Positions 34,454 through 53,314 of a stretch of 64,000 nt of DNA are shown in pieces. Location of the stretch: contig NZ_FOPY01000010.1 in the NCBI RefSeq assembly GCF_900113605.1, positions 62,001 through 126,000 of the forward strand. The letters are read 5' to 3'. Made by a program: the position numbers and the translations under genes. Every line of letters starts with the position of its first letter. The first letter of the stretch is position 1. Origin of the DNA: Modicisalibacter xianhensis (GTDB taxonomy: Bacteria; Pseudomonadota; Gammaproteobacteria; Pseudomonadales; Halomonadaceae). The notes under the pieces are model-generated. The model saw only the letters and a list, made by a program, of their open reading frames with translations, was not told where the DNA came from and searched no databases.

Positions 34454-34969
34454 TTTGCCCGGCTGGTGGCCTGGATGAGCCTTCTCGGTCTTTTGGCATG
34501 GGAGGGGGATTCCTTGACCATCCCTTGACCATCGTCAAGGTAGGTATTTTTAACGAAGCATATGAACTTCCCCACAGACGAAAGTCTGCCGTAGTCTATG
34601 CTTGGTCAGGAAATGAAAGCGCTAGATGTTACTGAACGGTTAATCGCACACTGTCTTTTATTACAGATGAATCCATTTCGTTAGGTGCTTTGACCGCAGG
34701 GCGATGTGTGACTTATACATCCTTCAGTGATAGTGGTTTATGGTGGGTTCGCCTGCGAGCCGTGAATGACCGGATAGTGTTGGCGGAAGATTGAGTTCGG
34801 TTTGCTGAAACAAAATATATAAATAAGAAAAGCAAGATTTGGCACGCGCAGCATTCGCCTTCCAGGGACAAGGAGGACGAATAAAGGATTGCTTGAGGGT
34901 AGTGCGGAACAATTATCGAACCCTGATTCCAGGGTTCATCACCATGTGAATCGAGCAGGGAGGTCGAAC
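34454..34969. other. Gene-free leader/promoter interval of the glucan-trehalose operon
   Basis: This 516-bp interval contains no convincing gene. Its right part (about 34590-34880) is AT-rich compared with the flanking genes, with an AAATATATAAATAAG run at 34813-34827. It holds the 34512-34553 repeat/promoter cluster described separately. A second possible promoter uses TTGAGT at 34791-34796 with the AT-rich run as -10 region, but its spacing (19 or more) is long. It separates the acrAB terminator from glgA and should contain the operon's main promoter. Confidence 0.5.
34512..34553 (+). promoter_or_regulatory. Tandem and inverted TTGAC repeats with a possible promoter
   Basis: The 11-mer CCTTGACCATC occurs twice in direct tandem (34512-34522, 34523-34533) and is followed at once by GTCAAGG, which forms a perfect 7-bp inverted repeat with the second copy. 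The second TTGACC could act as a -35 box with TTTTAA at 34548-34553 as -10 after 17 bp. This may be a promoter with overlapping regulator sites, or a weak hairpin terminator before ATTTTTAA. Confidence 0.4.
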
Positions 34970-36553
34970 ATGGGAAGTGTGGCATTGCATGGTGTTTCTT
35001 CGACTCAGGGTATGACTCCGGTCCGATACGTCTCGGACAAGGTCGTTCCTCACTTGCGTCCAGCAGGGAACGACCCGGTTGCCAGGGATGGCGACGATAG
35101 CTTTCGTATCCTTTTCGTGACGCCCGAAATCGCTGACTTCGTCAAGGTCGGCGGGCTGGGCGACGTGTCGTCGGCCCTGCCGAGGGCGCTGGCGTCGCGG
35201 CACGACGTACGGATCCTGATTCCCGCCTACCGGGAAATGATCGCCTCCGATCACGAGATCGAGATCCTGGGCAAGTTGCCCGGCCATGCCGAGATTCCCG
35301 CCTGCGAACTGGGCAAGATCACCTGCAGCGACGGTCTGGTCATCTATCTGCTGGTCTGTCCCGAGCTCTTCGAGCGCGAGGGCAATCCCTACTGCGACGA
35401 GACCGGTATCGGCTGGGAAGACAACGACATTCGCTTTGCGCGCCTGTCGCTGGCTGCCGCCCAGCTTGCCAGCGGTCGGGCCGGTCTCGACTGGCAGCCC
35501 GAACTGCTGCATCTCAACGACTGGACCTGTGGCCTGGCCGCCGGTTACCTGCATTGGTGGGGCATCGAGGTGCCCAGTATCTTCACCATTCATAACCTGG
35601 CCTATCAGGGGCTGTACGACATGTCGCGCTGCCAAGCGCTGGGCGTGCCGGCCTCGGCCTTCAACATGCATGAAGTCGAGTACTTCGGCCAGCTGTCGTT
35701 CATGAAGGCCGGCCTGGTGTATGGCTCGCATATCACCACGGTGAGCGCCACCTATGCCCGCGAGATCACCACGCCCCAGTTCGGTTGCGGCCTCAATGGC
35801 CTGCTGGATCAGCGTGCCGCCAAGGGCGAGTTGAGCGGCATTCCCAACGGCATCGACGACTCCTGGGATCCGCGTACCGACACCCATCTTGCCCAGGCCT
35901 TCGCCATGAACGACTGGCGCGGCAAGCGGGCCAATGCCGAGCACGTGCGTCGCCTGTTCGGGTTGGGTGTGAGCAGCGGCCCGCTGTTTGCGGTGGTCTC
36001 GCGCCTGGTTCACCAGAAGGGGCTGGACCTGACCATCGGGGCTGCGGAATCCATCGTGCGCGCCGGCGGACAGATCGTGTTCATCGGACGCGGCGAGATG
36101 CCGGTGGAAAAGGCGCTGCGCAACCTGGCGGCCCGGTTCCCGGGGGCCATAGGCGTCAACATCGGCTTCGACGAGGGCGAGGCGCGTTGCATGTACGCCG
36201 GCAGCGACTTCCTGCTCATGCCTTCGCGCTTCGAGCCGTGCGGGCTGAGTCAGATGTACGCCCAGCGCTTCGGGTCGTTGCCGATCGCTCACCGTACCGG
36301 CGGCCTGGCCGACACCATCGAGGATGGCGTCACCGGTTTCCTGTTCGACGAGATGACGCTGGAGAGCTACATCCACGCCATCCAGCGTGCCATCACCGTA
36401 TTCCGTGCCACCGACCTGTTCTATGCCATGCGCCGCGCGGCCATGGCCGGGCGTTACCACTGGCGACAGTCGATCGAGCCCTACAGCCAATTGTACCGCA
36501 CGGTTGTGCGCGGCAGTGAGACCCCGCACGCCGCTCTCGCTGCCGCGCGTTGA
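34970..36553 (+). CDS. glgA: Glycogen synthase GlgA
   Basis: Transfers glucose from ADP-glucose to the growing alpha-1,4-glucan (GT5 family). The 527-residue product has KVGGLGDV near the N-terminus, IHNLAYQG, and the C-terminal SRFEPCGLSQMYAQRFG and RTGGLADT motifs. The ATG is chosen for AGGGAGGT 7 bases upstream. It adds about 42 residues before the point where GlgA proteins normally start (ILFVTPE). It is the first gene of the operon. No glgC (ADP-glucose pyrophosphorylase) is present in this window. Confidence 0.95.
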   Translation: MGSVALHGVSSTQGMTPVRYVSDKVVPHLRPAGNDPVARDGDDSFRILFVTPEIADFVKVGGLGDVSSALPRALASRHDVRILIPAYREMIASDHEIEILGKLPGHAEIPACELGKITCSDGLVIYLLVCPELFEREGNPYCDETGIGWEDNDIRFARLSLAAAQLASGRAGLDWQPELLHLNDWTCGLAAGYLHWWGIEVPSIFTIHNLAYQGLYDMSRCQALGVPASAFNMHEVEYFGQLSFMKAGLVYGSHITTVSATYAREITTPQFGCGLNGLLDQRAAKGELSGIPNGIDDSWDPRTDTHLAQAFAMNDWRGKRANAEHVRRLFGLGVSSGPLFAVVSRLVHQKGLDLTIGAAESIVRAGGQIVFIGRGEMPVEKALRNLAARFPGAIGVNIGFDEGEARCMYAGSDFLLMPSRFEPCGLSQMYAQRFGSLPIAHRTGGLADTIEDGVTGFLFDEMTLESYIHAIQRAITVFRATDLFYAMRRAAMAGRYHWRQSIEPYSQLYRTVVRGSETPHAALAAAR

Positions 36554-36630: not shown

Positions 36631-38058
36631 ATGACCAGCCATTTTTCCCTCCGGTCGCCGTTGCCGTCTTCCGGAGCGACGCTGCAGGACACGGTCAGTG
36701 CGTGGTGGACCGCCCTGGAAGGGCATGTCGCCAGCGAGCATGCGCAGATGCACGAGGGGCAGCGAGGCGCCTGGCAGGGCTGCCTGGCCTCGCACCGTTG
36801 GCAAGATGCCGTGTGGATGCGGCAACGTCGCCGCGAGGACCCGTTGCTCTATCCCCTGTCGATCTATCGGCTCGATCCGCACGCCTGGCGTCATGACACA
36901 GCGGGAAACCCGTTGGGCTGGGAAGCCCTGGCCTCCCGGCTGGTGCCCTATGCCGCCGACCTGGGGTTTACGCATGTCGAGGTCAGGCATGTGGCCGAGG
37001 CGGATGCCGGCGTAGCCTTCGCCCGGTTCGTCGAGGCCTGCCATGTCGGCGGTCTCGGCGTGATCGTCGAATGGCCACTGGCCTTTCCGCAGGCGGATCT
37101 GGACGCGCCGACCTCGCTTGCGTTGGCGCATGACTGGCTCGAATTGCTGCATATCGATGGGTTGCGCCTCAAGCCGGCCTCGCCTGAGAGTGATGGCGCC
37201 GCTCTGGGGCGTTTCATGGACGCCCTGGTGGCCCAGGTCCCGGACGTCCTGCTGTTCGTCGACGATCACGATGCCGACGCGGCACCGGTCGCGGCGCGCG
37301 CCCTGGCGCTCAACACCCATTGGTCGCGGGCCACGCAGGCCTACCTGAGCGAGCCGCCCGAGGTGCGCGGTCACCATCATCATCGCCTGGTCGAGGGTCT
37401 GGCCAGCGCCTTCGAATCGCATTTCGTGCTGCCGCTGATCGACGAGCAGTCCGATGATGGCGATGCAACCTGGCTGGGACGCATGGCCGGCGATACTTGG
37501 CAGCGCTTTGCCAACCTGCGTGCCGGGCTCGGCTTCATGTGGGCGCATCCGGGCAAGAAGCTGGTCGGCATGGGCACCGAGTTCGCGCATGGCCAGGGCT
37601 GGCGCCCGGCCGGCGAGCTCGACTGGTCGCTGCTCGACGATCCCTGCCATGCCGGCATGTTGCGCCTGGTCGCCGATCTCAACCGCCTCTATGGCAACGA
37701 ACCGGCCCTGCATTACTTCGACTGCCAGCCGGAAGGCTTCGCCTGGGTCGTCGGTGACGACAGCGCCAACAGCGTGATCGCCTTCCTGCGCTACGGGCCC
37801 GAGGGCACGGCACCACTGCTGGCGATTGCCAATTTCACGCCCCATGTCCTGTCCGGCTACCGCCTGGGGGTGCCGGCGCTGGGGACATGGTACGAGGTGC
37901 TCAATACCGATAGTACATTCTATGGTGGCTCGAACGTCGGCAATGCGCATGGCGTCAGGGCGCAATTGTCGCCCAGCCATGGCTATCCGGCCTCGCTGGA
38001 GTTGACCTTGCCGCCATTGGCCACACTGCTGCTGAGACAAGGAGACTGGCCCGCATGA
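36631..38058 (+). CDS. GlgB-derived pseudoenzyme, catalytic residues lost
   Basis: A 475-residue protein clearly related to the GlgB of the same operon (53307-55535). Shared segments include [79 protein letters not shown] and the full beta-sandwich end. The CBM48 part of GlgB is missing and the barrel is shortened. Against GlgB D422, E475 and the H542-D543 pair, it has Lys181, Asp211 and Asp271-Glu272, so it should not branch or hydrolyse glucan. The frame is intact with normal codon use and overlaps treZ by 4 bases, so it is not a decaying pseudogene. The start has AAGGA upstream. A structural or regulatory role is inferred. Confidence 0.85.
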   Translation: MTSHFSLRSPLPSSGATLQDTVSAWWTALEGHVASEHAQMHEGQRGAWQGCLASHRWQDAVWMRQRRREDPLLYPLSIYRLDPHAWRHDTAGNPLGWEALASRLVPYAADLGFTHVEVRHVAEADAGVAFARFVEACHVGGLGVIVEWPLAFPQADLDAPTSLALAHDWLELLHIDGLRLKPASPESDGAALGRFMDALVAQVPDVLLFVDDHDADAAPVAARALALNTHWSRATQAYLSEPPEVRGHHHHRLVEGLASAFESHFVLPLIDEQSDDGDATWLGRMAGDTWQRFANLRAGLGFMWAHPGKKLVGMGTEFAHGQGWRPAGELDWSLLDDPCHAGMLRLVADLNRLYGNEPALHYFDCQPEGFAWVVGDDSANSVIAFLRYGPEGTAPLLAIANFTPHVLSGYRLGVPALGTWYEVLNTDSTFYGGSNVGNAHGVRAQLSPSHGYPASLELTLPPLATLLLRQGDWPA

Positions 38059-39875
38059 AGGACGAAACACGACAGGCCATCTTCACGCCGACCTACGGCG
38101 CCCACCTGCTGGATACCGAACGTACCCATTTCGTGTTCTGGGCACCCAGCGCCCATGCCGTGCATGTCGAAGTGGAGGGACACGGTAGCCAGCCAATGCA
38201 GCCAACCACCGAAGGGCATTACGAAGCCGAGGTGGCCTGCGGGCATGGCGCACGCTACCGCTACCGTGTGTTCGCGTCGGACGACGACGAGGGGACATTG
38301 GTACCCGACCCCGCCTCGCGGGCCCAGGAGGGTGATATCGACGGGCCTAGCCTGGTCATCGACCCGCAGCGCTATCAATGGCGCCATACCGCGTGGAAAG
38401 GTCGCCCATGGCACGAGACTGTGCTCTATGAGCTGCATGTCGGCACGCTGGGCGGCCTGGCCGGTGTTCGCGAGAAACTGCCCTACCTGGCCGAACTCGG
38501 TATCACCGCCATCGAACTGATGCCCGTCTCCGAGTTTCCCGGCGGGCGCAACTGGGGGTACGACGGCGTGTTGCCCTACGCCGTGGAAGCCTCCTACGGT
38601 AGCCCGGACGACATGAAGGCGCTGATCGACGAGGCCCATGCCCATGGGTTGATGGTCTTCCTCGACGTGGTCTACAACCACTTCGGCCCGGACGGCAACT
38701 ACCTGGCGACCTACGCCGATGCCTTCTTTCGTGAGGACCTGCAGACGCCCTGGGGGCCGTCCATCGATTTTCGCGAGCCGCATGTGCGCCGCTACTTCAT
38801 CGACAATGCCCTGATGTGGCTGCAGGAGTACCGCTTCGACGGACTGCGTTTCGATGCCGTACATGCCATCAGCGAGCGCGACTTCCTGGTCGAGATGGCC
38901 CAGGAGATTCGACGCCACGTCGATCCGCAGCGTCACGTTCACCTGGTTCTTGAGAACGAAGGCAACAACGCCAGCCTGCTCGATGCCGATCACTATACCG
39001 CCCAGTGGAGCGACGACTGGCACAACGTCATGCACGTGTTGCTTACCGGGGAGCATGAGGGCTACTACTCGGATTTCGTCGAGGATGCCACAGCCAAGCT
39101 GGTGCGCTGCCTGAGCGAAGGGTTCATCTACCAGGGCGAGCGTTCGCGTCATGGGCATACGCGCGGCGAGCCCAGTGCGCACCTGCCGACCAGCGCGTTC
39201 GTGATCTTCCTACAGAACCATGACCAGACCGGCAATCGTGCCCTCGGCGAACGCCTGAGTGTACTGGCCGATCCCGATGCACTCGTCGCCGCCAGCGTGC
39301 TGTTGCTGCTGTCGCCGATGGTGCCGTTGCTGTTCATGGGCGAGGAGTGGGGCTCAACGCGCCCCTTCCTGTTCTTCACCGAACATCACGATGAACTGGC
39401 CGATGCCGTGCGCGAGGGACGACGCGCCGAATTCGCCGATTTCAGTGTGTTCCGGGATGAGGCAACGCGCAGTCGCATTCCCGATCCCAATGCGCCGCAG
39501 ACGTTCGAGGATTCGGTCCCCGACTACCAGTTGCGTGAGACGCCCCCGCACGACGATTGGCTGGACCGCACCCGAACCCTGCTGCGCCTGCGCCACCACG
39601 ACATCGTGCCGCGGCTGCCGGGTACCCGGTCGTTGGGCGCTCAAGCGCTGGGCGACAAGGCCGTGGTAGCGCGCTGGCGCATGAACGACGGCAGCCGGTT
39701 GACCATTGCCCTCAACCTCAGCGGCAGCGAGGTGCCGGTACAAGGGATTGGCAATGGGCGCTGTCTGTTCGAGTCGCGTCCCGGTGTAGCCGGCGGCGTG
39801 ACGGAAGGGCGCCTTGTGTCGCACGGCGCTGCCGCCTGGCTGGATAGCGAAGACACCAACGAGGTTACTGCATGA
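38055..39875 (+). CDS. treZ: Malto-oligosyltrehalose trehalohydrolase
   Basis: Releases trehalose from maltooligosyl-trehalose made by TreY. The 606-residue GH13 protein has an N-terminal CBM48-like domain (THFVFWAPSAHAVHVEVEG), the TreZ-specific YELHVGTLGG, and catalytic residues nucleophile Asp267 (LRFDAVHA), acid Glu300 and Asp390 (LQNHDQTGNRA). The C-terminal DUF3459-type domain is present. It overlaps both neighbours by 4 bases. Confidence 0.95.
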   Translation: MKDETRQAIFTPTYGAHLLDTERTHFVFWAPSAHAVHVEVEGHGSQPMQPTTEGHYEAEVACGHGARYRYRVFASDDDEGTLVPDPASRAQEGDIDGPSLVIDPQRYQWRHTAWKGRPWHETVLYELHVGTLGGLAGVREKLPYLAELGITAIELMPVSEFPGGRNWGYDGVLPYAVEASYGSPDDMKALIDEAHAHGLMVFLDVVYNHFGPDGNYLATYADAFFREDLQTPWGPSIDFREPHVRRYFIDNALMWLQEYRFDGLRFDAVHAISERDFLVEMAQEIRRHVDPQRHVHLVLENEGNNASLLDADHYTAQWSDDWHNVMHVLLTGEHEGYYSDFVEDATAKLVRCLSEGFIYQGERSRHGHTRGEPSAHLPTSAFVIFLQNHDQTGNRALGERLSVLADPDALVAASVLLLLSPMVPLLFMGEEWGSTRPFLFFTEHHDELADAVREGRRAEFADFSVFRDEATRSRIPDPNAPQTFEDSVPDYQLRETPPHDDWLDRTRTLLRLRHHDIVPRLPGTRSLGAQALGDKAVVARWRMNDGSRLTIALNLSGSEVPVQGIGNGRCLFESRPGVAGGVTEGRLVSHGAAAWLDSEDTNEVTA

Positions 39876-42004
39876 GCGACGATCGCCTCAGGGAACTTGC
39901 CGACGCCGCCGGCCTGCTCGTCGAGTGGGAAAACAGCGACAGCGAACCCTGCGAACTCTCGCCCGACACGCAGCGCACCCTGCTTGGCGTGCTGGGCTTC
40001 CCTGCCGATGACGAGGCGGCGATCGAGGCCAGCCTCACGCGCCTGGAACAATGGCGTCACCCCGGGGAGCCTGCACAGTGGCCACCGTTGATTACGGCCG
40101 ACTGCGAGTCGCCGGTCGCCTTGCCCGGTGCGGTCTCCCCGGGCACGACTTACTGGCTGACGCTGGAAGGCGGCGACGAGCAGCGTGGCGAAATCGGGGT
40201 GGATGGCCGGCTGCCACCTATTGCCGAGATGGGGTATCACCGTCTACGTATTGCGGGTACCGAACTGACCGTGGCCGTCGCACCGCAGCAGTGCTTCGGT
40301 CCGGCGGATGCCAGTGGTCAGCCGGCGCCCCGGCTATGGGGGATGGCCGTACAGCTCTATGCGCTGCGTCGTCCCGGCGATGGCGGCATCGGCGATACCC
40401 TGGCGCTGGCGCACTTTGCCCGCCGGGCGGCCGAGCAGGGCGCCGCCACGCTGGCCATCAGCCCGACTCATGCCATGTTCAGTGCCGATCCCGAGCGCTA
40501 CAGCCCTTATTCGCCGTCCAGCCGGCTGCTCAGCAATGCGCTGTACGGTGCCCCCGAGCGGTTGTTGGGCGAGCAGGCCGTCGCCCGTGCCACCGCCGTC
40601 TGCGGGCTGGATGACGACCTGCGTCGGCTCGAAGCCGACGATGATCTCGATTGGCCCGCCGCGGGGCGTGCCAAGCTGACCTGGCTGCGCAGGCTCTACG
40701 ATGATCTTCTGGTGCGCGACGACGACGAGGCGCTCGCGTTGCGCCGTCGGTTGGCCGAGTTCCGTGAAGCCGGGGGTAGCTCGCTCGAGGATCACTGCCG
40801 TTTCGAGGCCTTGCAGGCCGTGCGCGGTGCCGGCTACTGGCGGGACTGGCCGGCGCCCCTGCAGGACCCGGCCAGTCCCGAGGTTGCGCGCTTTGCCGAA
40901 GAGCATGCTCACGAGGTGGGCTTCCATGCCTTCCTGCAGTGGCAGGTGACGGAAGGCCTGGCCGACGCCCAGGCCGTGGCGCGCGAAGCCGGCATGTCGA
41001 TCGGTCTGATCGCCGATCTGGCGGTGGGTACCGATGACGCCGGCAGCCAGTCCTGGAGCCGGCAGGGCGAGATGCTCGAAGGCGTGTCGGTCGGTGCGCC
41101 GCCCGATGCCTTTAACGCCCAGGGCCAGGACTGGGGGTTGGCGGCCTTCTCTCCGCATGGCCTGGTGCGCTCCGGCTTTCGCACCTTCATCGACATGCTG
41201 CGCGCCAGTTTCCGGCATGCCGGCGGGCTGCGCATCGATCACATTCTCGGGTTGATGCGCCTGTGGCTGGTGCCACATGGCGCTCCGCCGACGCAAGGTG
41301 GCTACGTGAGCTATCCGCTGGACGACATGCTGCGGCTGGTGGCGCTGGAATCCTGGCGTCATCGCGGCATTGTCATCGGCGAGGATCTGGGCACCGTGGC
41401 GCCCGGCTTTCGCGACAAGCTTGCCGAGCGCGGCATCCTCGGCATGCAGGTGCTGTGGTTCGAGGAGGATGACAACGGTGGTTTCCTGCCCGCCACACAG
41501 TGGTCGAACACCGCCATGGCGACTACCTCGACCCATGACCTGCCCACCGTGGCCGGCTGGTGGGCCGGGCGCGACATCGACTGGCGAAGCCGGCTGGACA
41601 TGCTTGGCGAGGATCAGGATGCCGATAGCGAGCGTCAGGCACGCGGCAAGGCACGGGCCAGCCTGGCAGGCACACTGGAACTGCTTGGTCACGCATCCCC
41701 ACGCCCCGCGACATTGCAGGCCTCGGACCTGTCGGCGTCGCAGGTGCTGGATGCCTGTGCCCGGCATATAGGGCACACGCCGTCACCGCTGGCGATCCTG
41801 CCAGTAGAAGACGTGCTGGGGCTCGAGGAGCAGGCCAACCTGCCCGGTACGCTCGATGAGCATCCCAACTGGCGGCGGCGCTGGATGAGCGAGGCCGATA
41901 CGCTGCTGGCGCCCGATGAAGTGCGTCATCGCCTGGGCGAGTTGCAGCGCACCCGAGACATTTCGCGACAGGTCGCACACGCGCCTCTGGAGCCCAAGTC
42001 ATGA
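39872..42004 (+). CDS. malQ: 4-alpha-glucanotransferase (amylomaltase)
   Basis: A 710-residue GH77 disproportionating enzyme that transfers alpha-1,4-glucan segments between chains, releasing glucose. An N-terminal extension of about 150 residues of the bacterial MalQ type is followed by the barrel. Catalytic residues are Asp456 (LRIDHILGLMRLW), Glu504 (IGEDLGTV) and Asp556 (TSTHDLPTVAGWW). It lies between treZ and treY, as in pseudomonads, and likely recycles short maltodextrins left by the debranching and trehalose-forming steps. Confidence 0.95.
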   Translation: MSDDRLRELADAAGLLVEWENSDSEPCELSPDTQRTLLGVLGFPADDEAAIEASLTRLEQWRHPGEPAQWPPLITADCESPVALPGAVSPGTTYWLTLEGGDEQRGEIGVDGRLPPIAEMGYHRLRIAGTELTVAVAPQQCFGPADASGQPAPRLWGMAVQLYALRRPGDGGIGDTLALAHFARRAAEQGAATLAISPTHAMFSADPERYSPYSPSSRLLSNALYGAPERLLGEQAVARATAVCGLDDDLRRLEADDDLDWPAAGRAKLTWLRRLYDDLLVRDDDEALALRRRLAEFREAGGSSLEDHCRFEALQAVRGAGYWRDWPAPLQDPASPEVARFAEEHAHEVGFHAFLQWQVTEGLADAQAVAREAGMSIGLIADLAVGTDDAGSQSWSRQGEMLEGVSVGAPPDAFNAQGQDWGLAAFSPHGLVRSGFRTFIDMLRASFRHAGGLRIDHILGLMRLWLVPHGAPPTQGGYVSYPLDDMLRLVALESWRHRGIVIGEDLGTVAPGFRDKLAERGILGMQVLWFEEDDNGGFLPATQWSNTAMATTSTHDLPTVAGWWAGRDIDWRSRLDMLGEDQDADSERQARGKARASLAGTLELLGHASPRPATLQASDLSASQVLDACARHIGHTPSPLAILPVEDVLGLEEQANLPGTLDEHPNWRRRWMSEADTLLAPDEVRHRLGELQRTRDISRQVAHAPLEPKS

Positions 42005-44793
42005 AGGACATTCGTGCGACCGTACGACTGCAGTTTCATGCCGATTTTACCCTCGACGATGCTGCACAGTGGGTCGACTATTTTGCCGAGCTTGGTGTGA
42101 GTCATGCCTATGCCTCGCCGCTACTGGCCTCCCGGGCCGGCTCGACGCATGGTTATGACGGCATCGACCCGACCCGCATCGATCCGGAAATCGGTGGCGA
42201 AGCGGCACTCGAGCGGCTGGTGGAGCAGTTGCGCTCGCGAGGCATGGGACTGATCCTGGATATCGTGCCCAACCATGTTGCGGTGGGCGGCTCGGAAAAT
42301 CCCTGGTGGCAGGAAGTCCTGGCCTGGGGGCGCGACAGTCCGTACGCCGATTTCTTCGACATCGACTGGCAATCGCCCGATCCGCTGCTCAAGGGGCGTC
42401 TGTTGGTACCGTTTCTGGGGGCGCCCTACGATGAAGTGCTGACCTCGGGCCTGCTCAAGCTGGCCTATGTCCCCGAGTCGGCGAGTTTCACCCTCGAATA
42501 CCACGAACATCGTTTTCCCATCGATCCGCGCCGCTATGGCGATATCCTGCGTCATGCCGAGCATGAGGCATTGCACGAACTCGCGGTGCAGTTCGACGGG
42601 TTGCAGACGCGTCTCGATGCCTATACCAGCGTCGGTGAGTTGCGGCGTCAGTTGCGCCACGCACTCGAGGACGAGATGGCCCGAGGTGCATTGTCCCGTG
42701 CACTGGAACATTTCGCAGGCAATTCACCGGCCGGGGCCGAGCGATTGCATGCCCTGCTCGAGCGACAGAATTACCGGCTGGCCTGGTGGCGCACCGCCTC
42801 CGACGAGATCAATTGGCGGCGCTTTTTCGACATTACCGAACTGGGCGGCCTGCGTGTCGAGCTGCCCGAGGTCTTCGAGGCAACACACCCCTTGATCCTG
42901 CGTCTCGTCGAGGCGGGCTGGGTGGATGGCCTGCGTGTCGATCATGTCGATGGGCTGGCCGACCCGCGGGGCTATTGCCTGCGCCTGCGTGAACGCCTCG
43001 ACCTGCTGCAGGACAAGCGGCCCGCCGACGTGCCTGGTCGGGCTGCGCTGTATGTGGAGAAGATCCTCGCTGAAGGCGAGCACCTGCATACCGATTGGGG
43101 TGTGGACGGCACTACCGGCTATGAATTCATGAACGAGGTGTCCGGGGTCCAGCATGATCCCGACGGGGCGGTGCCGTTGCGTGGGTTGTGGCGCGAGATC
43201 AGCGGGCGTGAAGACGATTTCCTGGCCGAGGTTCGCCAGGCGCGAGCGGAAATGCTCGACACCGTGCTGGCCAGCGAATTCGAGGCCTGCGGCCTGGCCC
43301 TGCACAGGGTGGCCCGGGCCAGCCGCGAGACGCGGGACATTACGCTGGGCGCGATCAAGCGCGCCTTGAAGGCCTTGGTTGTGCACTTCCCGGTCTATCG
43401 CACCTATGCTGATGAGCACGGGCGCCCCAGGCAGGACGAGCCGTTCTTTCAGCAGGCAATGACCGGGGCGCGAGATGCGCTGAATCCCCCCGATGTGGCG
43501 GTGCTTGAGCAACTGGAGCGCTGGTTGGGCGGCGAAGCGCCCCGCGACTGCCAGGATGACGATGTGCGTAGCCTGCGCCTGCGTGCCATGACCCGCTTCC
43601 AGCAACTGACGTCACCGGCGGCGGCCAAGGCGGTGGAGGACACCGCCGGGTATCGCAGTACCGTACTCATATCGCGTAACGATGTGGGCTTCGACCCGCA
43701 GAACTTCTGTGTCGCTCCTGCGGAATTCCACACTGCCAGCGCGTTTCGCCATCACCATTTTCCGCACTCGCTGGTCACTACGGCAACCCACGACCACAAG
43801 CGTGGCGAAGACGTGCGAGCGCGCCTGGCGGTGTTGAGCGAACGGGCCGAGGCGTTCGCCGAGCGTGTGCGCGAGTGGCGTAGCCAGGCCAGCCCGTTGC
43901 GTCGCGACGTGCCCAGCGGCATGGCACCCTCACCGGGCGACGAGTTGATTCTCTACCAGATGCTGCTGGGGGCCTGGCCGCCATCTCTCGAGGCAGACGA
44001 CGACGAGGCCATGGGCGAATTTACCGAGCGCCTTGCCCAGTGGCAGATGAAGGCGTTGCGTGAGGCCAAGCTGCGCAGCCATTGGCTGTGGCCTGACGAA
44101 GGCTACGAACAGGCGTGCCGGGCATTCCTCGAAGGGTGGCTCGCCGAGCCGGGCCGTCGTCTCGCCCTGCGTACCGCTGCCCGGGAGCTGGACCTGCCCG
44201 GCGCCATCAATGGCCTGGTTCAGGTAGCGCTGCGCATGACCGTGCCCGGCGTGCCCGACCTCTATCAGGGCACCGAATACTGGGACTTCAGTCTCGTCGA
44301 TCCGGACAATCGCCGTCCCGTCGATTATGCGGCCCGCCAAGCCTCGCTGGGGCGGGGCGAATCGCCGGCCGAGGCCATGGCGCACTGGCACGATGGTCAG
44401 GTCAAGCAGGCGGTGGTGCATCGCCTGCTGATGTTGCGCCGCCACTCTCCGACCCTGTTTGCCGAAGGCGATTATCAACCGCTGCATGTCGCTGGCGACA
44501 AGGCCAGTCATGTGCTGGGCTTCATGCGTGAGCATGACGCACAGGCGGTAATGGTCGTGGTGCCGCGCATGCCCGCAAAACTGCTGGAAGGGACTACGCT
44601 ACCCCATATACCGGCGGAAAACTGGGGCGATACCCAACTTCAGGTCATGCCAGCGATGCAGGGAGAGTGGCGCGATGTGCTGTCGGATTCCACGCTTCGG
44701 CTACGCGAAGGGACGATTCCGGTCGGTGAGTTGCTGGGTGCGTTCCCGGTCGCTGTCCTGGCCAGGGACGATGGGGCTGCGCGCGATGGCTAG
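42001..44793 (+). CDS. treY: Malto-oligosyltrehalose synthase
   Basis: Rearranges the reducing-end glucose of alpha-1,4-glucans into an alpha,alpha-1,1 link, giving maltooligosyl-trehalose for TreZ. The 930-residue GH13 protein opens with the typical TVRLQFHADFTLDDA and YASPLLASRAGSTHGYDGID. Catalytic residues are Asp314 (LRVDHVDGLADP), Glu353 (YVEKIL) and Asp598 (TATHDHKRGED). It overlaps malQ by 4 bases. After it comes a 90-bp gap with a hairpin. Confidence 0.95.
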   Translation: MKDIRATVRLQFHADFTLDDAAQWVDYFAELGVSHAYASPLLASRAGSTHGYDGIDPTRIDPEIGGEAALERLVEQLRSRGMGLILDIVPNHVAVGGSENPWWQEVLAWGRDSPYADFFDIDWQSPDPLLKGRLLVPFLGAPYDEVLTSGLLKLAYVPESASFTLEYHEHRFPIDPRRYGDILRHAEHEALHELAVQFDGLQTRLDAYTSVGELRRQLRHALEDEMARGALSRALEHFAGNSPAGAERLHALLERQNYRLAWWRTASDEINWRRFFDITELGGLRVELPEVFEATHPLILRLVEAGWVDGLRVDHVDGLADPRGYCLRLRERLDLLQDKRPADVPGRAALYVEKILAEGEHLHTDWGVDGTTGYEFMNEVSGVQHDPDGAVPLRGLWREISGREDDFLAEVRQARAEMLDTVLASEFEACGLALHRVARASRETRDITLGAIKRALKALVVHFPVYRTYADEHGRPRQDEPFFQQAMTGARDALNPPDVAVLEQLERWLGGEAPRDCQDDDVRSLRLRAMTRFQQLTSPAAAKAVEDTAGYRSTVLISRNDVGFDPQNFCVAPAEFHTASAFRHHHFPHSLVTTATHDHKRGEDVRARLAVLSERAEAFAERVREWRSQASPLRRDVPSGMAPSPGDELILYQMLLGAWPPSLEADDDEAMGEFTERLAQWQMKALREAKLRSHWLWPDEGYEQACRAFLEGWLAEPGRRLALRTAARELDLPGAINGLVQVALRMTVPGVPDLYQGTEYWDFSLVDPDNRRPVDYAARQASLGRGESPAEAMAHWHDGQVKQAVVHRLLMLRRHSPTLFAEGDYQPLHVAGDKASHVLGFMREHDAQAVMVVVPRMPAKLLEGTTLPHIPAENWGDTQLQVMPAMQGEWRDVLSDSTLRLREGTIPVGELLGAFPVAVLARDDGAARDG

Positions 44794-44883: not shown

Positions 44884-45549
44884 ATGGCAGACGACGAACT
44901 GCGGATACGCCAGTTGGCCTATCGCATCTGGGAATCCGAGGGACGCCCCGACGGGCAGGAACAACGTCACTGGGAAATGGCGCGCAAGATCGTCGCGGCT
45001 GAGCATGAGTCGGGACGCGAGGCGCATCCGGATGTCGAAATCGAACCCGACGATACAGACCCGGATCTGCCCGTACGCGATGACGACCTCGGTGTGGACC
45101 AGGATGACTTGGGCCTGGGGTCGTCCACGGACCCGGAGGCGGATGCGCTCGCCGACGAGGCCCCGGATCGCAATCTGGGCCGTGAGCGGGAGGGGGTGCC
45201 GGTAACGCGGAGCGATGCGGCCAGTGCTGAAACGCCATTGCCTGAGGAATCCGCCACGGTGAAGCGTGCGCGCAAACCCCGTCGCACCGAAGACACTGTT
45301 TCCCAACCCAATGCCACCGATACCTCGTCGCCAGGCAGAAGTGCCACCACGCGCTCACGGGCCGGGGCGACCAAGGCGACCAGCACCAAGTCGGCCAAGG
45401 CAAGTACCGCGTCGAAAGCCAAGTCGGGCGGCAAGGCGGCCGGAACATCGACCCGGTCGCGGTCGGCGACAGGCACCAAGAGCGAGACGCCCGAGAAGGG
45501 CGAGAAGAAGACCAAGACCAGCGACACGGCGCGCAAGAACAAAAAATGA
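44884..45549 (+). CDS. DUF2934 protein with acidic linker and Lys/Ala-rich tail
   Basis: A 221-residue protein in three parts: a DUF2934 domain (residues 1-42; IRQLAYRIWESEGRPDGQEQ then HWEMARKIV), a strongly acidic Asp-rich linker (about 45-100), and a Lys/Ala/Thr/Ser/Arg-rich tail (about 120-221) recalling histone H1-like or AlgP-like proteins. DUF2934 is a short helical motif often found beside glgX, treY or branching enzymes, and its function is not established. GGGGAG lies 9 bases upstream of the ATG. The charge pattern suggests binding to nucleic acid or an acidic partner, which is inference. Confidence 0.85.
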   Translation: MADDELRIRQLAYRIWESEGRPDGQEQRHWEMARKIVAAEHESGREAHPDVEIEPDDTDPDLPVRDDDLGVDQDDLGLGSSTDPEADALADEAPDRNLGREREGVPVTRSDAASAETPLPEESATVKRARKPRRTEDTVSQPNATDTSSPGRSATTRSRAGATKATSTKSAKASTASKAKSGGKAAGTSTRSRSATGTKSETPEKGEKKTKTSDTARKNKK

Positions 45550-45639: not shown

Positions 45640-47826
<2,187 letters not shown>

Positions 47827-47838
47827 CCTTGAAGTCGC

Positions 47839-47871
47839 GGCCGTGTGATGCCCGTAAGGGGCAGCACGGCC
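47839..47871 (+). other. Intercistronic two-part hairpin between glgX and glgE
   Basis: GGCCGTG/CACGGCC (outer, 7 bp) and TGCCC/GGGCA (inner, 5 bp) nest around a 5-base loop, giving a strong interrupted hairpin 12 bases after the glgX stop. There is no T-run. A role in transcript stability or partial termination is likely. Confidence 0.6.
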
Positions 47872-47918
47872 ATGCCGCACAGACCGCAACTCCGCCCCAG
47901 GGACGGAAGGAGACGCCA

Positions 47919-49952
47919 ATGACAACGAGTTCATCCGTACACCTGACTCCGGACACGATGGCTGCGTCATCGCCGGGAGATGACAGTGTCCAGGCAGCGG
48001 CGCAATCGCCGCGTATCGCCATCGAGTCCGTTCAGCCGTCGCTCGAGCATGGGCGGTTTGCCGCCAAGGCGATCGCCGGCGAGCCGGTCACCGTCTCCGC
48101 AGTGATCTTTGCCGACGGCCATGACGTGCTGGCGGCCGCCGTTAACTGGTGCGACGACCAGGACCAGTGCCGGCGCGAGCCGATGCATCTGGTGCGGCCG
48201 CTGGGCAAGGATATCTGGGAGACGACCTTCATTCCGCACCGGGTCGGTCGGCATACCTTCGTGATCGAGGCGTGGTGGGATGTGTTCGGCACCTACCGCG
48301 ACGAACTGTTCAAGAAGCATCAGGCAGGCGTGCCGGTCTCGCTCGAGCTCGAGGAAGGGCGTCGCCTGGTGACGGCCGCCGCCGAGCGCTCGGAAGGGGA
48401 GTTGCGCGACACCCTGGAAGAAATCCACGAACGCTTCCAGGCCTGCCACAGCGATGGCGAGCGCGTCGGCGTCATGCTCGATACCCGCACCGCCCAGGCG
48501 ATGCATGCCGCCGATGCACGACCGCACCTGGCGCGCAGCGAGGCGGCCTATCCACTCGAGGTCGAGCGCCGCGCGGCCCAGTTCGGTAGCTGGTACGAGC
48601 TGTTCCCGCGCTCTGAAACCGACGACCCCAATCGGCATGGCACCTTCGACGATGTTCACAAGCGCTTGCCGATGATCCGCGACATGGGCTTCGACGTGCT
48701 CTATTTTCCACCGATCCACCCGGTGGGGCGGGCCCACCGCAAGGGGCGCAACAATACGCTGCAGGCCGGCCCGGATGATCCTGGCAGCCCGTATGCCATC
48801 GGTAGTGAAGAGGGCGGCCATGACGCGATCCATCCCGAACTCGGCACGCGCGAGGATTTTCGCAACCTGGTCAAGGCTGCCGCCGAACACGGCCTGGAGA
48901 TCGCCCTGGACTTCGCCATCCAGTGCTCGCCGGATCACCCCTGGCTCAAGGAGCATCCCGGCTGGTTTTCCTGGCGGCCCGACGGGTCGCTGCGCTACGC
49001 CGAGAACCCGCCAAAGAAATACCAGGACATCGTCAACGTCGACTTCTATGCCGAGGATTCCGTGCCCTCGCTGTGGCTGACGCTGCGCGACGTGGTGCAG
49101 GGCTGGGTGGACGAAGGCGTGAAGATCTTCCGCGTCGACAATCCGCATACCAAGCCGCTGCCGTTCTGGGAATGGCTGATCGCTGACATCCGCTCGCGTG
49201 ATCCGGGCGTATTGTTCCTGGCCGAAGCCTTCACCCGGCCGGCGATGATGAAGCGCCTGGGCAAGATCGGCTTCAACATGAGCTATACCTACTTCACCTG
49301 GCGTAACACCAAGGGCGAGTTGACCGAGTATCTGACCGAGCTCAACGAGTCGCCGATGCGCGAGTGCTACCGGCCCAATTTCTTCGTCAATACGCCGGAC
49401 ATCAATCCCTATTTCCTGCAGTCCTCGGGGCGCCCCGGCTTCCTGATCCGTGCCGCACTGGCCACCATGGGCTCCGGGCTGTGGGGCATGTATTCCGGGT
49501 TCGAGCTTTGCGAAGGCGAGCCGGTGCCGGGCAAGGAGGAGTACCTCGACTCCGAGAAGTACGAGATCAAGCCACGCGACTACACCGCACCCGGCAACAT
49601 CACCTACGAGATTACCCAGCTCAATCGCATCCGCCGCGAGAATCGGGCGCTGCAGACTCATCTAGGGATCGCTTTCTATCCCGTGCACAACGATCGGTTG
49701 CTGTACTTCGGCAAGCGTACCGATGACCTGGGCAACTTCATTCTGGTGATGGTCAACCTCGATCCGTTCGAGGCCCAGGAAGGCCCCTTCGAACTACCGC
49801 TGTGGGAGTTCGACCTGCCCGATGACGCAGCGCTGCACGTGGAAGACTTGATGTCCGGTCATCGCTGGACATGGCATGGCAAATGGCAGTCGATGCGATT
49901 GGAGCCGTGGCATTTGCCGTTCGCCATCTGGCGCATCCACCCGGTGCGCTGA
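47919..49952 (+). CDS. glgE: Alpha-1,4-glucan:maltose-1-phosphate maltosyltransferase
   Basis: Adds maltosyl units from maltose 1-phosphate to the non-reducing end of alpha-1,4-glucan (GH13_3). The 677-residue product has the N-terminal GlgE domain (ETTFIPHRVGRHTFVIEAWWD), YFPPIHPVGRAHRKGRNNTL, and catalytic residues nucleophile Asp407 (FRVDNPHTKPLPFWEW), acid Glu436 (FLAEAFTRP) and Asp494 (NTPDINPY). Their spacing closely follows Streptomyces coelicolor GlgE (394/423/480). AAGGAG lies 6 bases before the ATG. The substrate is supplied by the next gene. Confidence 0.96.
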   Translation: MTTSSSVHLTPDTMAASSPGDDSVQAAAQSPRIAIESVQPSLEHGRFAAKAIAGEPVTVSAVIFADGHDVLAAAVNWCDDQDQCRREPMHLVRPLGKDIWETTFIPHRVGRHTFVIEAWWDVFGTYRDELFKKHQAGVPVSLELEEGRRLVTAAAERSEGELRDTLEEIHERFQACHSDGERVGVMLDTRTAQAMHAADARPHLARSEAAYPLEVERRAAQFGSWYELFPRSETDDPNRHGTFDDVHKRLPMIRDMGFDVLYFPPIHPVGRAHRKGRNNTLQAGPDDPGSPYAIGSEEGGHDAIHPELGTREDFRNLVKAAAEHGLEIALDFAIQCSPDHPWLKEHPGWFSWRPDGSLRYAENPPKKYQDIVNVDFYAEDSVPSLWLTLRDVVQGWVDEGVKIFRVDNPHTKPLPFWEWLIADIRSRDPGVLFLAEAFTRPAMMKRLGKIGFNMSYTYFTWRNTKGELTEYLTELNESPMRECYRPNFFVNTPDINPYFLQSSGRPGFLIRAALATMGSGLWGMYSGFELCEGEPVPGKEEYLDSEKYEIKPRDYTAPGNITYEITQLNRIRRENRALQTHLGIAFYPVHNDRLLYFGKRTDDLGNFILVMVNLDPFEAQEGPFELPLWEFDLPDDAALHVEDLMSGHRWTWHGKWQSMRLEPWHLPFAIWRIHPVR

Positions 49953-49975
49953 TCAGCCAAGGAGGAAATAGCACC

Positions 49976-52900
49976 ATGATGGATGCCAGCAGCGAGTCGC
50001 ACGCCGTCGAGACCATCGATTTTCTCGACGATCCGCTATGGTACAAGGACGCCGTCATCTACCAGGTGCACGTCAAGTCGTTCTTCGATGCCAACGATGA
50101 CGGCATCGGGGACTTCAGGGGGCTGATCGAGAAGCTGGATTACATTGTCAGCCTGGGCGTGAACACCATCTGGATTCTGCCGTTCTACCCGTCGCCGAGG
50201 CGCGATGACGGCTACGATATTGCCGAATATACCGGCGTCAGCCCCGACTATGGCACGCTCGAGGACGCCCAGCGCTTCATCGCGGAAGCACACAAGCGTG
50301 GCCTGCGCGTGATCACCGAACTGGTCATCAACCACACCTCGGATCAGCACGAGTGGTTCCAGCGCGCGCGCCGCGCGCCGCCGGGTTCGCCGGAGCGCGA
50401 CTTCTACGTGTGGTCGGACAGCGACCAGAAGTATCCCGGCACGCGCATCATCTTCCTGGATACCGAGTCGTCCAACTGGACCTGGGATCCGGTCGCCAAT
50501 GCCTACTTCTGGCACCGCTTCTATTCCCACCAGCCGGATCTGAACTTCGACAACCCCCAGGTGCTCGACGAAGTGCTCAAGGTCATGGAGTACTGGCTGG
50601 ACATGGGGGTCGACGGGCTGCGCCTGGATGCGATTCCCTACCTGGTCGAGCGCGAGGGCACCAATAACGAGAACCTGCCCGAGACGCACGACGTACTCAA
50701 GAAGATCCGCACGGTGATCGACGAGCGCTATCCGGACCGCATGTTACTGGCCGAGGCCAATCAGTGGCCGGAGGATACGCGGCCCTATTTCGGCGATGGC
50801 GACGAATGCCACATGGCGTTTCATTTTCCGCTGATGCCACGGATGTACATGGCGCTGGCCCAGGAAGACCGGTTCCCGATCACCGATATCCTGCGGCAGA
50901 CGCCGGAGATCCCGCCGACCTGCCAGTGGGCGATCTTCCTGCGCAACCATGACGAACTGACCCTGGAGATGGTCACCGACAAGGAGCGTGACTATCTCTG
51001 GAATCATTACGCCGCCGACCGCCGTGCACGTATCAATCTGGGCATCCGGCGTCGCCTGGCACCGCTGCTCGAGCGCGACCGGCGCCGCGTCGAATTGCTC
51101 AACAGCCTGCTGCTGTCGATGCCGGGCACGCCGGTGCTCTACTACGGTGACGAGATCGGCATGGGCGATAACATCTACCTGGGCGACCGCGATGGCGTGC
51201 GCACCCCGATGCAGTGGTCGATGGACCGCAACGGCGGTTTCTCGAAGGCCGACCCTGCCAAGCTCGTGCTGCCGGCCATCATGGATCCGCTGTACGGTTA
51301 TCAATCGATCAACGTCGAGGCGCAGGCCCGCGATCCCCACTCGCTGCTCAACAACATGCGCCGGCTGCTGGTGGTGCGTAGCCAGCATCGCGCGTTCAGT
51401 CGTGGCACCATGCGTCCGCTGTATCCCCGTAACCGGCACATCCTCGCTTACCTGCGCGAGATGACCCTGGACAATGGCGAGAGCGAGGTGCTGCTGTGCG
51501 TGGCCAACGTGGCACGCAACGCCCAGGCGGTGGAACTCGACCTGTCGGCCTTTGCCGGACAGGTGCCGGTGGAAATGGTCGGCGGCAGCGCCTTTCCGCC
51601 GATAGGCAACTTGCCCTACCTGCTGACCTTGCCACCCTACGGCTTCTACTGGTTCCTGCTGGCGCCCGAGACCGCCATGCCCGAGTGGCACGTGCCGGCC
51701 CCCGAGCCCATGCCGGATTACGTCACGCTGATCATCAAGCGCCATCTGGAGGAGATTCTCGACACGCCGTCACGCGGCATGCTGGAGAACGAGGCCCTGC
51801 CCAAGTACCTGCCCAAGCGGCGCTGGTTCGCTGCCAAGCAGGCACGTATCCAGCGGGTCCGTATCCCCTATGCGGTACGCATCGAGGATGCTCAGCACAC
51901 CATGTTGCTCAGTGAACTCGAGGTTGAGCATTCCCAGGGTACCGAGCGCTACCAGTTGCCGCTGGGCTTTTTGGGCGAGGACGAGCGTGGCGGGGCCATG
52001 GCCCAGCAATTGGCGCTGGCACGGGTTCGTCGCGGGCGCGACGTTGGCCTGCTGACCGATGCACTGGGGCTGGACGCCTTTGCCCTGCGCATCCTCGACC
52101 TGCTGCGCACCGGGGTCAGCCTGCCCTGTGACGAAGGCGAGATACGCTTCGTGCCAACGCAGGCGCTGAGCGAACTGGAACTGCCCGAGGACGTCGATGT
52201 TGCCCATAACAACGTCGAGCAGTCCAACAGTTCGGTGATCATCGGCCACAAGGTGGTGCTCAAGCTGTTCCGGCGTCTGGAGCCGGGGCTGCATCCCGAA
52301 GCCGAGATCGGCCATTACCTGAGCGAGCACGGCTTCGCCAACGTGCCGCCGCTCTACGGTGAGGTGGCGCGTCGCAACGTTGACGGCGAGTCGCAGACCC
52401 TGATGCTCGTACAGGGCTTCATCGCCAACCAGGGGGATGCCTGGTCATGGACGCGCAACGCCCTCGAGCGTGCGATTCGCGAGGCGAGCGAGGACACCGA
52501 GGCCAACCCCGAGGAGGGGGGCTACGGGGCACTCGACGAACTCGAGGTGTTCGCGACGACCCTTGGGCAGCGACTCGGCGAACTGCATCGGGTGCTGGCG
52601 TCGCCGAGTGAAAATCCTGACTTTGCTCCGGAACAGGCCGGTGACGCGCACGTGGCTGCGTGGTCGCAGCGGGTTCGAGAACAGGTCGATAAGGCCCTGG
52701 GTCTGCTCGAACGGCACAAGAGCAGTGCCGGAGAGGCCGACCAGGCGCTGGCCGAGCGGGTGCTGGCCGAGCGCGATGTCCTGCTGGCTGCCATCGACCC
52801 CTTGGCGCAGCAGGCCAAGGGCAGTCTGCTGACCCGCATCCATGGCGACCTGCATCTCGGTCAGGTGCTGGTGGCACACGACGACGCCTACATCATCGAC

Positions 52901-53314
52901 TTCGAGGGTGAGCCAGCGCGCTCGCTGGAAGAACGGCGCGCCAAGGACTGCCCGCTACGCGACGTGGCCGGCATGTTGCGTTCCTTCGATTATGCCGGTG
53001 CCAAGCTGGACGAGGCGGCCGCCGGCAAGGCCAGCGACGAAAGCGCGGTCGAAGTGGCGCATGGCGTCGCCGAGCGTTACCTACTGACGAGCCGTCGTGC
53101 CTTCCTGACAGCCTACTGGCAGAGTGCCAGCAATATCGCTCACCGCTGGACGGCCAGTGAAGGCGCCAACGCGGCACTGGAATTGTTCGTGCTGGAAAAG
53201 ACGGCTTATGAAATCGCCTACGAGGCTGCCAATCGCCCCGCCTGGCTGGGTGTGCCGCTGCGCGGACTGGCAGCCATCGTCGACCAACTGTCTACGCGAG
53301 GGGCACATGACTGA
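49976..53314 (+). CDS. treS: Trehalose synthase / maltokinase fusion (TreS-Mak)
   Basis: A 1112-residue fusion. Residues 1 to about 560 are the trehalose synthase (maltose-trehalose isomerase) GH13_16 domain with Asp218 (LRLDAIPYL), Glu260 (LAEANQWP) and Asp326 ([10 protein letters not shown]). Residues about 600-1112 are a maltokinase (Pep2) domain with N-terminal [10 protein letters not shown] and the kinase loop [11 protein letters not shown] (Asp958) plus [16 protein letters not shown]. It turns trehalose into maltose and then maltose 1-phosphate for GlgE. AAGGAGGA precedes the ATG by 9 bases. Such fusions are frequent in proteobacterial glgE clusters. Confidence 0.95.

Follow-up and report, generated by a model that had tools for sequence, protein, structure and literature searches.

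What does a relative of the glycogen branching enzyme GlgB do between glgA and treZ, once it has lost the residues with which GlgB works? The question is raised by an open reading frame at 36631..38058 of a 64,000-nucleotide stretch of the Modicisalibacter xianhensis contig NZ_FOPY01000010.1 (the window; all features described here lie on its forward strand), which is open throughout and encodes a protein of 475 amino acids, P0001. The gene is part of an operon with the order glgA, P0001 gene, treZ, malQ, treY, DUF2934 gene, glgX, glgE, treS-maltokinase fusion and glgB; we refer to the place between glgA and treZ as slot 1 and to that of the glgB downstream of treS as slot 2. From its open frame, GlgB homology, clade, place in a tree and ratio of nonsynonymous to synonymous change (dN/dS), we annotate P0001 as a slot-1 pseudo-branching enzyme. 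We propose that it is a non-catalytic glucan-binding or docking subunit serving GlgA, TreY and TreZ, comparable to plant ISA2, a reading based on sequence comparison and analogy to which we assign a probability of about 0.43.

The relationship of P0001 to branching enzymes is clear. A PDB sequence search with an E limit of 0.01 gave 17 distinct sequences, which are branching enzymes, and NCBIfam GlgB models match P0001 as well (best E 7.6e-97, 325 bits versus a cut-off of 1270); all six listed NCBIfam models score it under their own cut-offs, such that it falls outside the curated GlgB equivalog. Its sole Pfam match is Alpha-amylase_C (residues 372-469, E 1.6e-22), the Pfam scan matching neither PF00128 (the GH13 catalytic domain) nor CBM_48. 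Compared to GlgB, the N1 and CBM48 domains are gone, the latter as claimed in a first-pass annotation made from the DNA letters, and about 196 N-terminal residues are missing or unalignable. Likewise, a Pfam scan of 23 truncated relatives recovered Alpha-amylase_C in all 23 and in no case the GH13 catalytic domain; the additional match was a weak one to DUF3806 in a single member.

The multiple alignment confirmed the catalytic replacements that had been read from the window: D422, E475, H542 and D543 of the operon GlgB correspond to K181, D211, D271 and E272 of P0001. Thus, Lys181 (37171..37173) replaces the GH13 nucleophile Asp, Asp211 (37261..37263) replaces the acid/base Glu, and Asp271-Glu272 (37441..37446) replaces the His-Asp pair that includes the transition-state stabiliser. 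The expectation that homologues would always lack the full triad (nucleophile Asp, acid/base Glu, stabiliser Asp) was borne out, as none of 29 truncated proteins has all three residues; none has nucleophile and acid/base together, and the histidine is missing in all 29. We consider P0001 almost certainly dead as a GH13 enzyme.

The predicted structure places these losses in a wider remodeling. An AlphaFold2 model of P0001 has an eight-stranded barrel and a C-domain, and its matches with VIA-align and Foldseek are branching enzymes and other GH13 proteins (the absence of other folds is uninformative); by homology and predicted fold, the GH13 barrel and all-beta C-domain appear to be shared by descent. 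The model begins with a variable tail (residues 1-38; 36631..36744) that is predicted to be disordered (pLDDT <50; residues 1-55 have a mean identity of 9%), followed by the (beta/alpha)8 barrel, beta1-beta8 (residues 77-313; 36859..37569; delimited by DSSP of the model, with loop lengths showing its catalytic-face loops to be shortened) and the C-terminal beta-sandwich (Alpha-amylase_C, residues 372-469; 37744..38037), the best conserved part by Pfam, segment identity and dN/dS. The shrunken links of the barrel are all on the catalytic face: three beta-alpha loops went from 30 to 10, 52 to 16 and 34 to 11 residues, and the beta5-beta6 stretch from 19 to 12. On this model, the catalytic face is rebuilt, beyond mere mutation. 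The alignment over most of the barrel and the whole C-terminal sandwich that the first pass described therefore stands for the eight predicted strands and the C-domain, but not for the catalytic-face loops, which are cut; the 33-residue block that it had aligned is ungapped, but the gapless stretch is longer, running in E. coli GlgB from P0001 residue 228 to 336.

A rebuilt face could also be a new active site, with P0001 an enzyme of another kind. Weighing in that direction, and against a purely non-catalytic protein, residues 211, 271 and 272 are all Asp or Glu in 10 of 13 non-Salinicola truncated proteins, and this subgroup may have a remodeled acidic site; we dropped for this group a claim that no alternative acidic set exists, and rated a new enzyme slightly higher, and the main readings slightly lower, on that account. 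Moreover, simple shaving of loops does not fit two members, G618, which has unrelated sequence of 38 residues in beta2-alpha2 and 41 in beta3-alpha3, and G170, which has 22 and 32 such residues at these places; the G618 protein has Glu at both 181 and 211. The acidic set is missing, however, in all 16 Salinicola truncated proteins, and the beta3-beta6 sector is the least conserved part except for the N-tail. Alternative acidic residues, which the first pass had named as a possible objection, thus occur as a full set outside Salinicola only, where we read them as remnants of the former catalytic site or as residues that bind; a new enzyme is very improbable.

Is the gene kept for a function? 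Its stop overlaps the treZ start as ATGA (treZ begins at 38055), a junction found in 36 of 38 slot-1 genes, full and truncated (two genomes of genus g9 are the exceptions). The first-pass annotation had taken the intact frame and this coupling as signs of selection; both observations hold, but an open frame is no proof, and it is dN/dS that shows selection. In 15 close pairs dN/dS of the truncated gene was 0.096-0.236, with no neutral evolution in the pairs measured; a further, distant pair, close to saturation at synonymous sites, gave 0.30. In these 16 pairs, the values were 0.046-0.118 for GlgB2 and 0.093-0.195 for treZ. The C-domain of the truncated gene had a dN/dS of 0.018-0.139, below that of the live GlgB2 C-domain in 11 of 13 pairs (the intervals overlap), and its identity was 68% (six genomes) compared to 66% in GlgB2 (five genomes). 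The truncated proteins are less well kept than GlgB2 in beta8-alpha8 (67% versus 82%) and in alpha4-beta5 (22% versus 85%). The better kept side comprises beta7, beta8 and beta1, contiguous in the barrel, with the C-domain, and the eroded side comprises beta3-beta6.

These values also bear on the possibility that P0001 is a decaying pseudogene. Two of them count against a conserved role: whole-gene dN/dS exceeds that of GlgB2 in 16 of 16 pairs, and the part before the last 245 codons, with its fast N-terminus, reaches 0.14-0.47. In addition, one of the 17 Salinicola copies, that of G189 (S. tamaricis), is frameshifted. On the other side, the range of 0.10-0.24 is far from decay in the close pairs, the C-domain is constrained about as in live GlgB, and 28 of 29 family copies are free of internal stops and frameshifts over the sequence covered (the G145 copy is cut by contig ends), so that the frameshifts considered in the first pass come down to one copy. 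The G189 frameshift is likely an assembly error, since malQ-treY is also out of frame in that genome (completeness 93%). We regard decay as the least credible of the explanations considered, with hardly any probability; the pattern looks like a changed role instead, and the truncated gene is very probably selected for a non-catalytic one. On sequence grounds, P0001 has GlgB homology, lost catalytic residues and, across several genera, purifying selection in the pairs measured, as expected of the conserved pseudoenzyme that had been suggested.

Homologues turned out not to be rare. Among 275 halomonad genomes (the family sample), 77 have treZ at E 1e-120, and slot 1 of these holds the truncated protein in 29, a full GlgB in 16 and neither in 32. 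The 29 carriers belong to genera g1 (8, including Modicisalibacter luteus and several Halomonas sp.), g8 (2; H. jincaotanensis and H. korlensis), g18 (1), g21 (1) and g20 (Salinicola; 17). Full-length GlgB adjoins treZ in genera g9 (2), g10 (10), g11 (3) and g17 (1), ten of these 16 loci having been read and six judged by coordinates. All 32 empty-slot genomes were read: the glgA-treZ gap is -14 to +72 bases in 31, and in G266 (74% complete, with the treZ frame cut) it is 553 bases without a slot-1 match.

Outside the family, an order-level sample (390 genomes) yielded one truncated slot-1 protein, in G618, a genome of another family that has the operon with the truncated protein (locus L128); among 163 genomes of that family, G618 alone has it, and transfer to or from G618 is probable. 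Short matches in G363 and G296 were rejected as fragments of GlgB, one lying at the edge of a contig and the other spread over two frames. A class-level sample (369 genomes) gave no truncated slot-1 protein among the matches listed, with short-frame matches in G839, G851, G998 and G1102 (249-268 bits) left unclassified. A wider contig scan returned 25 loci: 20 with truncated slot-1 proteins, L111 with a GlgB of about 640 amino acids, and four Lachnospiraceae matches of 23-25% identity.

Two further observations concern slot 1. Six loci of g17 and g10 (L044, L047, L048, L052, L070, L071) have two full-length GlgBs per operon, one in slot 1 and one after treS, both of which keep the catalytic residues (in several, the stretch ends within the slot-2 copy). 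In G145 (Modicisalibacter luteus; end of L033, L143, L144), three contigs terminate within slot-1 sequence; one contig end encodes 64 residues 100% identical to P0001, while the copy beside treZ is 91% identical, and the extra sequence is possibly a second copy or contamination.

Wherever both flanks are visible in the samples searched, the truncated protein is found only between glgA and treZ, as had been anticipated. This constancy and the ATGA coupling to treZ point to the pathway of the operon and stand against recruitment to an unrelated task, for which there is a plant precedent: MKIP1, a class III branching enzyme that is dead like P0001, has a new, non-catalytic role in plastid splicing, a role independent of its carbohydrate-binding-module (CBM) tryptophans (PMC13172542). 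MKIP1 keeps its CBM, gained a domain and binds MatK, whereas P0001 lost the CBM and remains in a glucan operon (PMC13172542). An unrelated task would also accommodate residues that are newly conserved in the truncated clade, Asn356, Leu225 and Trp281 (37471..37473), the last near-invariant (28 of 29) where 46 catalytic GlgB rows have Leu or Met. We judge recruitment of this kind, as of MKIP1 to intron splicing, to be improbable.

From which GlgB did P0001 arise? The first-pass alignment had used the in-operon GlgB, but the nearest relatives outside the truncated clade are not that protein but the GlgBs in the glgA-treZ slot of other halomonads. Seven residues are common to slot-1 proteins, full and truncated (D110, A348, F385, A394, S428, S449 and W473), each present in at most 2 of 36 slot-2 rows; descent from the operon's own slot-2 GlgB was rejected on this ground. 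In a tree built on the C-terminal part common to all, the truncated proteins (29 rows: 16 Salinicola, 12 other halomonads and G618) split from full slot-1 and slot-2 GlgBs with support of 100/100, and all slot-1 rows lie on one side with moderate support (88/82); in a larger tree, the full slot-1 rows failed to form one group. A tree uniting the non-Salinicola truncated rows with the full slot-1 GlgBs was rejected (p-AU 0.007). A separate truncation in Salinicola is disfavored by the C-terminal tree, in which the Salinicola branch is long (0.79 changes per column) and carries some risk of a long-branch artefact. With moderate tree support, the ancestor of P0001 appears to be a slot-1 GlgB, not the second GlgB of the operon, and the simplest history would be a single slot-1 GlgB, one loss of its active site, and inheritance thereafter.

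With which half of the operon does P0001 go? The first pass had tied it to GlgE loci, a tie that failed: a genome-wide search (E 1e-30) found no glgE match in 12 of 17 Salinicola carriers, including the genome with the frameshifted copy, and a GlgE-specific function was rejected for this reason. In the same 12 genomes treS is not at the locus (no genome-wide search for treS was made). In the other five Salinicola loci (L058, L060, L064, L065, L066), glgE, treS and glgB are 85-92% identical to those of the window, while glgA, the pseudoenzyme gene, treZ, malQ, treY and glgX are as distant from their namesakes as in other Salinicola. Their GlgB is 90-92% identical to that of the window, where the remaining twelve show 66-69%; in the larger tree, the GlgB2 of the five falls with genus g1. 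The glgE-treS-glgB block of these five looks transferred, with the pseudoenzyme having stayed native. Because glgE is absent in 12 Salinicola and apparently foreign in five, the pseudoenzyme goes with glgA-treZ-malQ-treY. In P. aeruginosa this gene set converts linear glucan made by GlgA to trehalose, and most of the polymeric store is made by GlgE (PMC8084333). The role of P0001 is probably on the GlgA/TreYZ/MalQ side instead of for GlgE. One of the five loci, L066 of Salinicola G186, has its catalytic GlgB (1-2435) broken into adjacent frames of 402 and 408 amino acids by a frameshift, a stop or a sequencing error.

The alternative partner is the catalytic GlgB of the same operon, whose branch pattern a heteromeric non-catalytic subunit could tune as ISA2 does for ISA1. 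The slot-2 glgB is present downstream in every truncated locus read (in two frames in G186), and ISA1 and ISA2 are a documented pair of live and dead GH13 paralogues (PMC12510319). On the other hand, GlgB functions without the pseudoenzyme in the 32 empty-slot genomes, the pseudoenzyme gene is at the opposite end of the operon, adjoining glgA, and in the five Salinicola with a foreign-like GlgB the native pseudoenzyme remains constrained (the two pairs measured have dN/dS of 0.12 and 0.15). The Salinicola swap argues only weakly against a partnership with GlgB, since the foreign GlgB resembles that of genomes that also bear the pseudoenzyme, a circumstance that weakens our reading. Of the roles suggested in the first pass (glucan scaffold, adaptor of GlgA, GlgB and TreZ, or allosteric subunit, all conjectural), the evidence would favor a place on the GlgA-TreYZ side more than that of a dedicated partner of GlgB, which we consider unlikely.

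Could the kept part of P0001 still hold glucan? E. coli GlgB has twelve surface glucan sites, with one named residue each (PMC10254366), and by alignment P0001 has equivalents of three: Trp332 (37624..37626) of Trp586 at site I, kept in 29 of 29 truncated proteins; Trp290 (37498..37500) of Trp544 at site V, kept in 26 of 29; and Trp372 (37744..37746) of Trp628 at site VI, kept in 29 of 29. The named residues of sites II, VII and X are kept neither in truncated proteins nor in slot-2 GlgBs; site IV fell in the lost CBM48, sites III and XII, located manually, fall where the sequence is changed or cut, and the site XI residue is Glu in the alignment. Glucan binding is permitted by the kept residues, and we lean slightly toward its being part of the mechanism. 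The same tryptophans would serve a competitor that coats glucan as it grows and keeps GlgB or phosphorylase away from it, with no docking of enzymes, and the substrate of TreY is linear glucan (PMC8084333). Two of the three tryptophans are general in live GlgBs, however, and site VIII is lost; we find such a competitor quite unlikely.

We therefore return to the proposed subunit of the GlgA-to-trehalose branch. A second GlgB once encoded between glgA and treZ would have left P0001 as a catalytically dead descendant that lost its N-terminal domains, most catalytic-face loops and the GH13 residues, and retained the C-terminal sandwich and the predicted barrel scaffold. The face that it kept, formed by beta7, beta8 and beta1 of the barrel together with the C-domain and bearing the equivalents of the three E. 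coli tryptophans, may bind linear glucan from GlgA, dock GlgA or TreZ/TreY/MalQ, or both, such that chains would reach TreY and TreZ unbranched. It is doubtful that branching next to GlgA and TreY would be useful, and a dead relative that holds chains could help. This full mechanism of tethering and docking is put forward tentatively. A bolder version, in which loop-shaved branching enzymes form a family of "anti-branching" glucan chaperones that hand the nascent linear chain of GlgA to MalQ, TreY and TreZ, is doubtful; were it true, one operon would separate a linear glucan stream for trehalose from a branched stream for storage, and bacterial alpha-glucan metabolism would have a dedicated subunit without catalysis, of a kind for which we found no description.

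Several observations weigh against a glucan-holding subunit. Trp332 and Trp372 are also conserved in live GlgBs, and Trp290 occurs in 35 of 36 slot-2 and 5 of 10 full slot-1 rows; since live GlgBs conserve them too, all three may be structural. The site VIII tyrosine is present in 36 of 36 slot-2 rows and lost in 29 of 29 truncated proteins, and the authors of the E. coli study hold that conservation of the whole of site I is limited to enterobacteria (PMC10254366). Finally, 32 of 77 treZ-bearing halomonads do without the gene, so the role is dispensable.

Several known systems come close to P0001. Bacterial GlgBs (E. coli, M. tuberculosis and Rhodothermus structures) have in common with it the barrel and C-domain fold, as predicted, and the apparent descent through a slot-1 GlgB; P0001 differs from them in lacking N1, CBM48 and the catalytic residues and in its cut catalytic-face loops. 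4F2hc and rBAT, animal membrane glycoproteins of amino-acid transporters, are non-catalytic GH13-like barrel proteins that act as partner subunits. Plant ISA2, like P0001, is a selected dead GH13 paralogue within a glucan pathway, but it is a paralogue of a debranching enzyme with changed residues, whereas P0001 also lacks loops and CBM48 (PMC12510319). The GlgA-GlgB fusion of Waddlia has a GlgB part without detected branching activity in a genome with a GlgE-operon GlgB2; that part belongs to a fusion and is possibly disappearing, according to its authors, whereas P0001 is separate, loop-shaved and selected (PMC7935935). In archaea, a GH13 isoform is tabulated as inactive for some species (PMC11046441). 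Among the matches listed in a search of the open-access literature, none described a GlgB homologue that is dead and encoded in slot 1; within that scope, dead branching enzymes are known in plants, and we did not find a free-standing bacterial one described. A selected, apparently non-catalytic GlgB derivative in this slot makes the separation of trehalose and branched-glucan streams testable, and its clade offers a series in which to follow how an enzyme is repurposed, from the full GlgB of the slot through the truncated form to the further trimmed form of Salinicola. For annotation, a GlgB-like match in the glgA-treZ slot need not be a branching enzyme.

The neighbors of P0001 were assigned mainly by Pfam. 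Upstream lies glgA, glycogen synthase (34889..36553; Glyco_transf_5; start codon uncertain). Downstream are 38055..39875 (Alpha-amylase, DUF3459), which we take to be treZ from the gene order; malQ (39872..42004; Glyco_hydro_77); and 42001..44793 (Alpha-amylase), presumably treY, again by gene order. These are followed by the DUF2934 gene (44884..45549), the putative glgX as we name it (45640..47826; CBM_48 and Alpha-amylase), glgE (47829..49952; GlgE_dom_N_S, GLGE_C; start uncertain), the treS-maltokinase fusion (49871..53314; Alpha-amylase and Mak_N_cap; start uncertain) and the catalytic slot-2 GlgB (53307..55535), which keeps the GH13 residues. In a sub-clade of genus g1 (L036, L037, L038 and L039, from genomes G147, G153, G152 and G149), malQ and treY form a single frame of 1686-1695 amino acids, a MalQ-TreY fusion with both parts nearly full-length and a linker of about 40-50 residues; G189 has a malQ-treY frame of 1500 amino acids, but its assembly looks error-prone. 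The DUF2934 protein, between treY and glgX, has a short conserved N-terminal domain (residues 5-39) and a long low-complexity tail rich in K, S and T, and is found in most loci of the operon.
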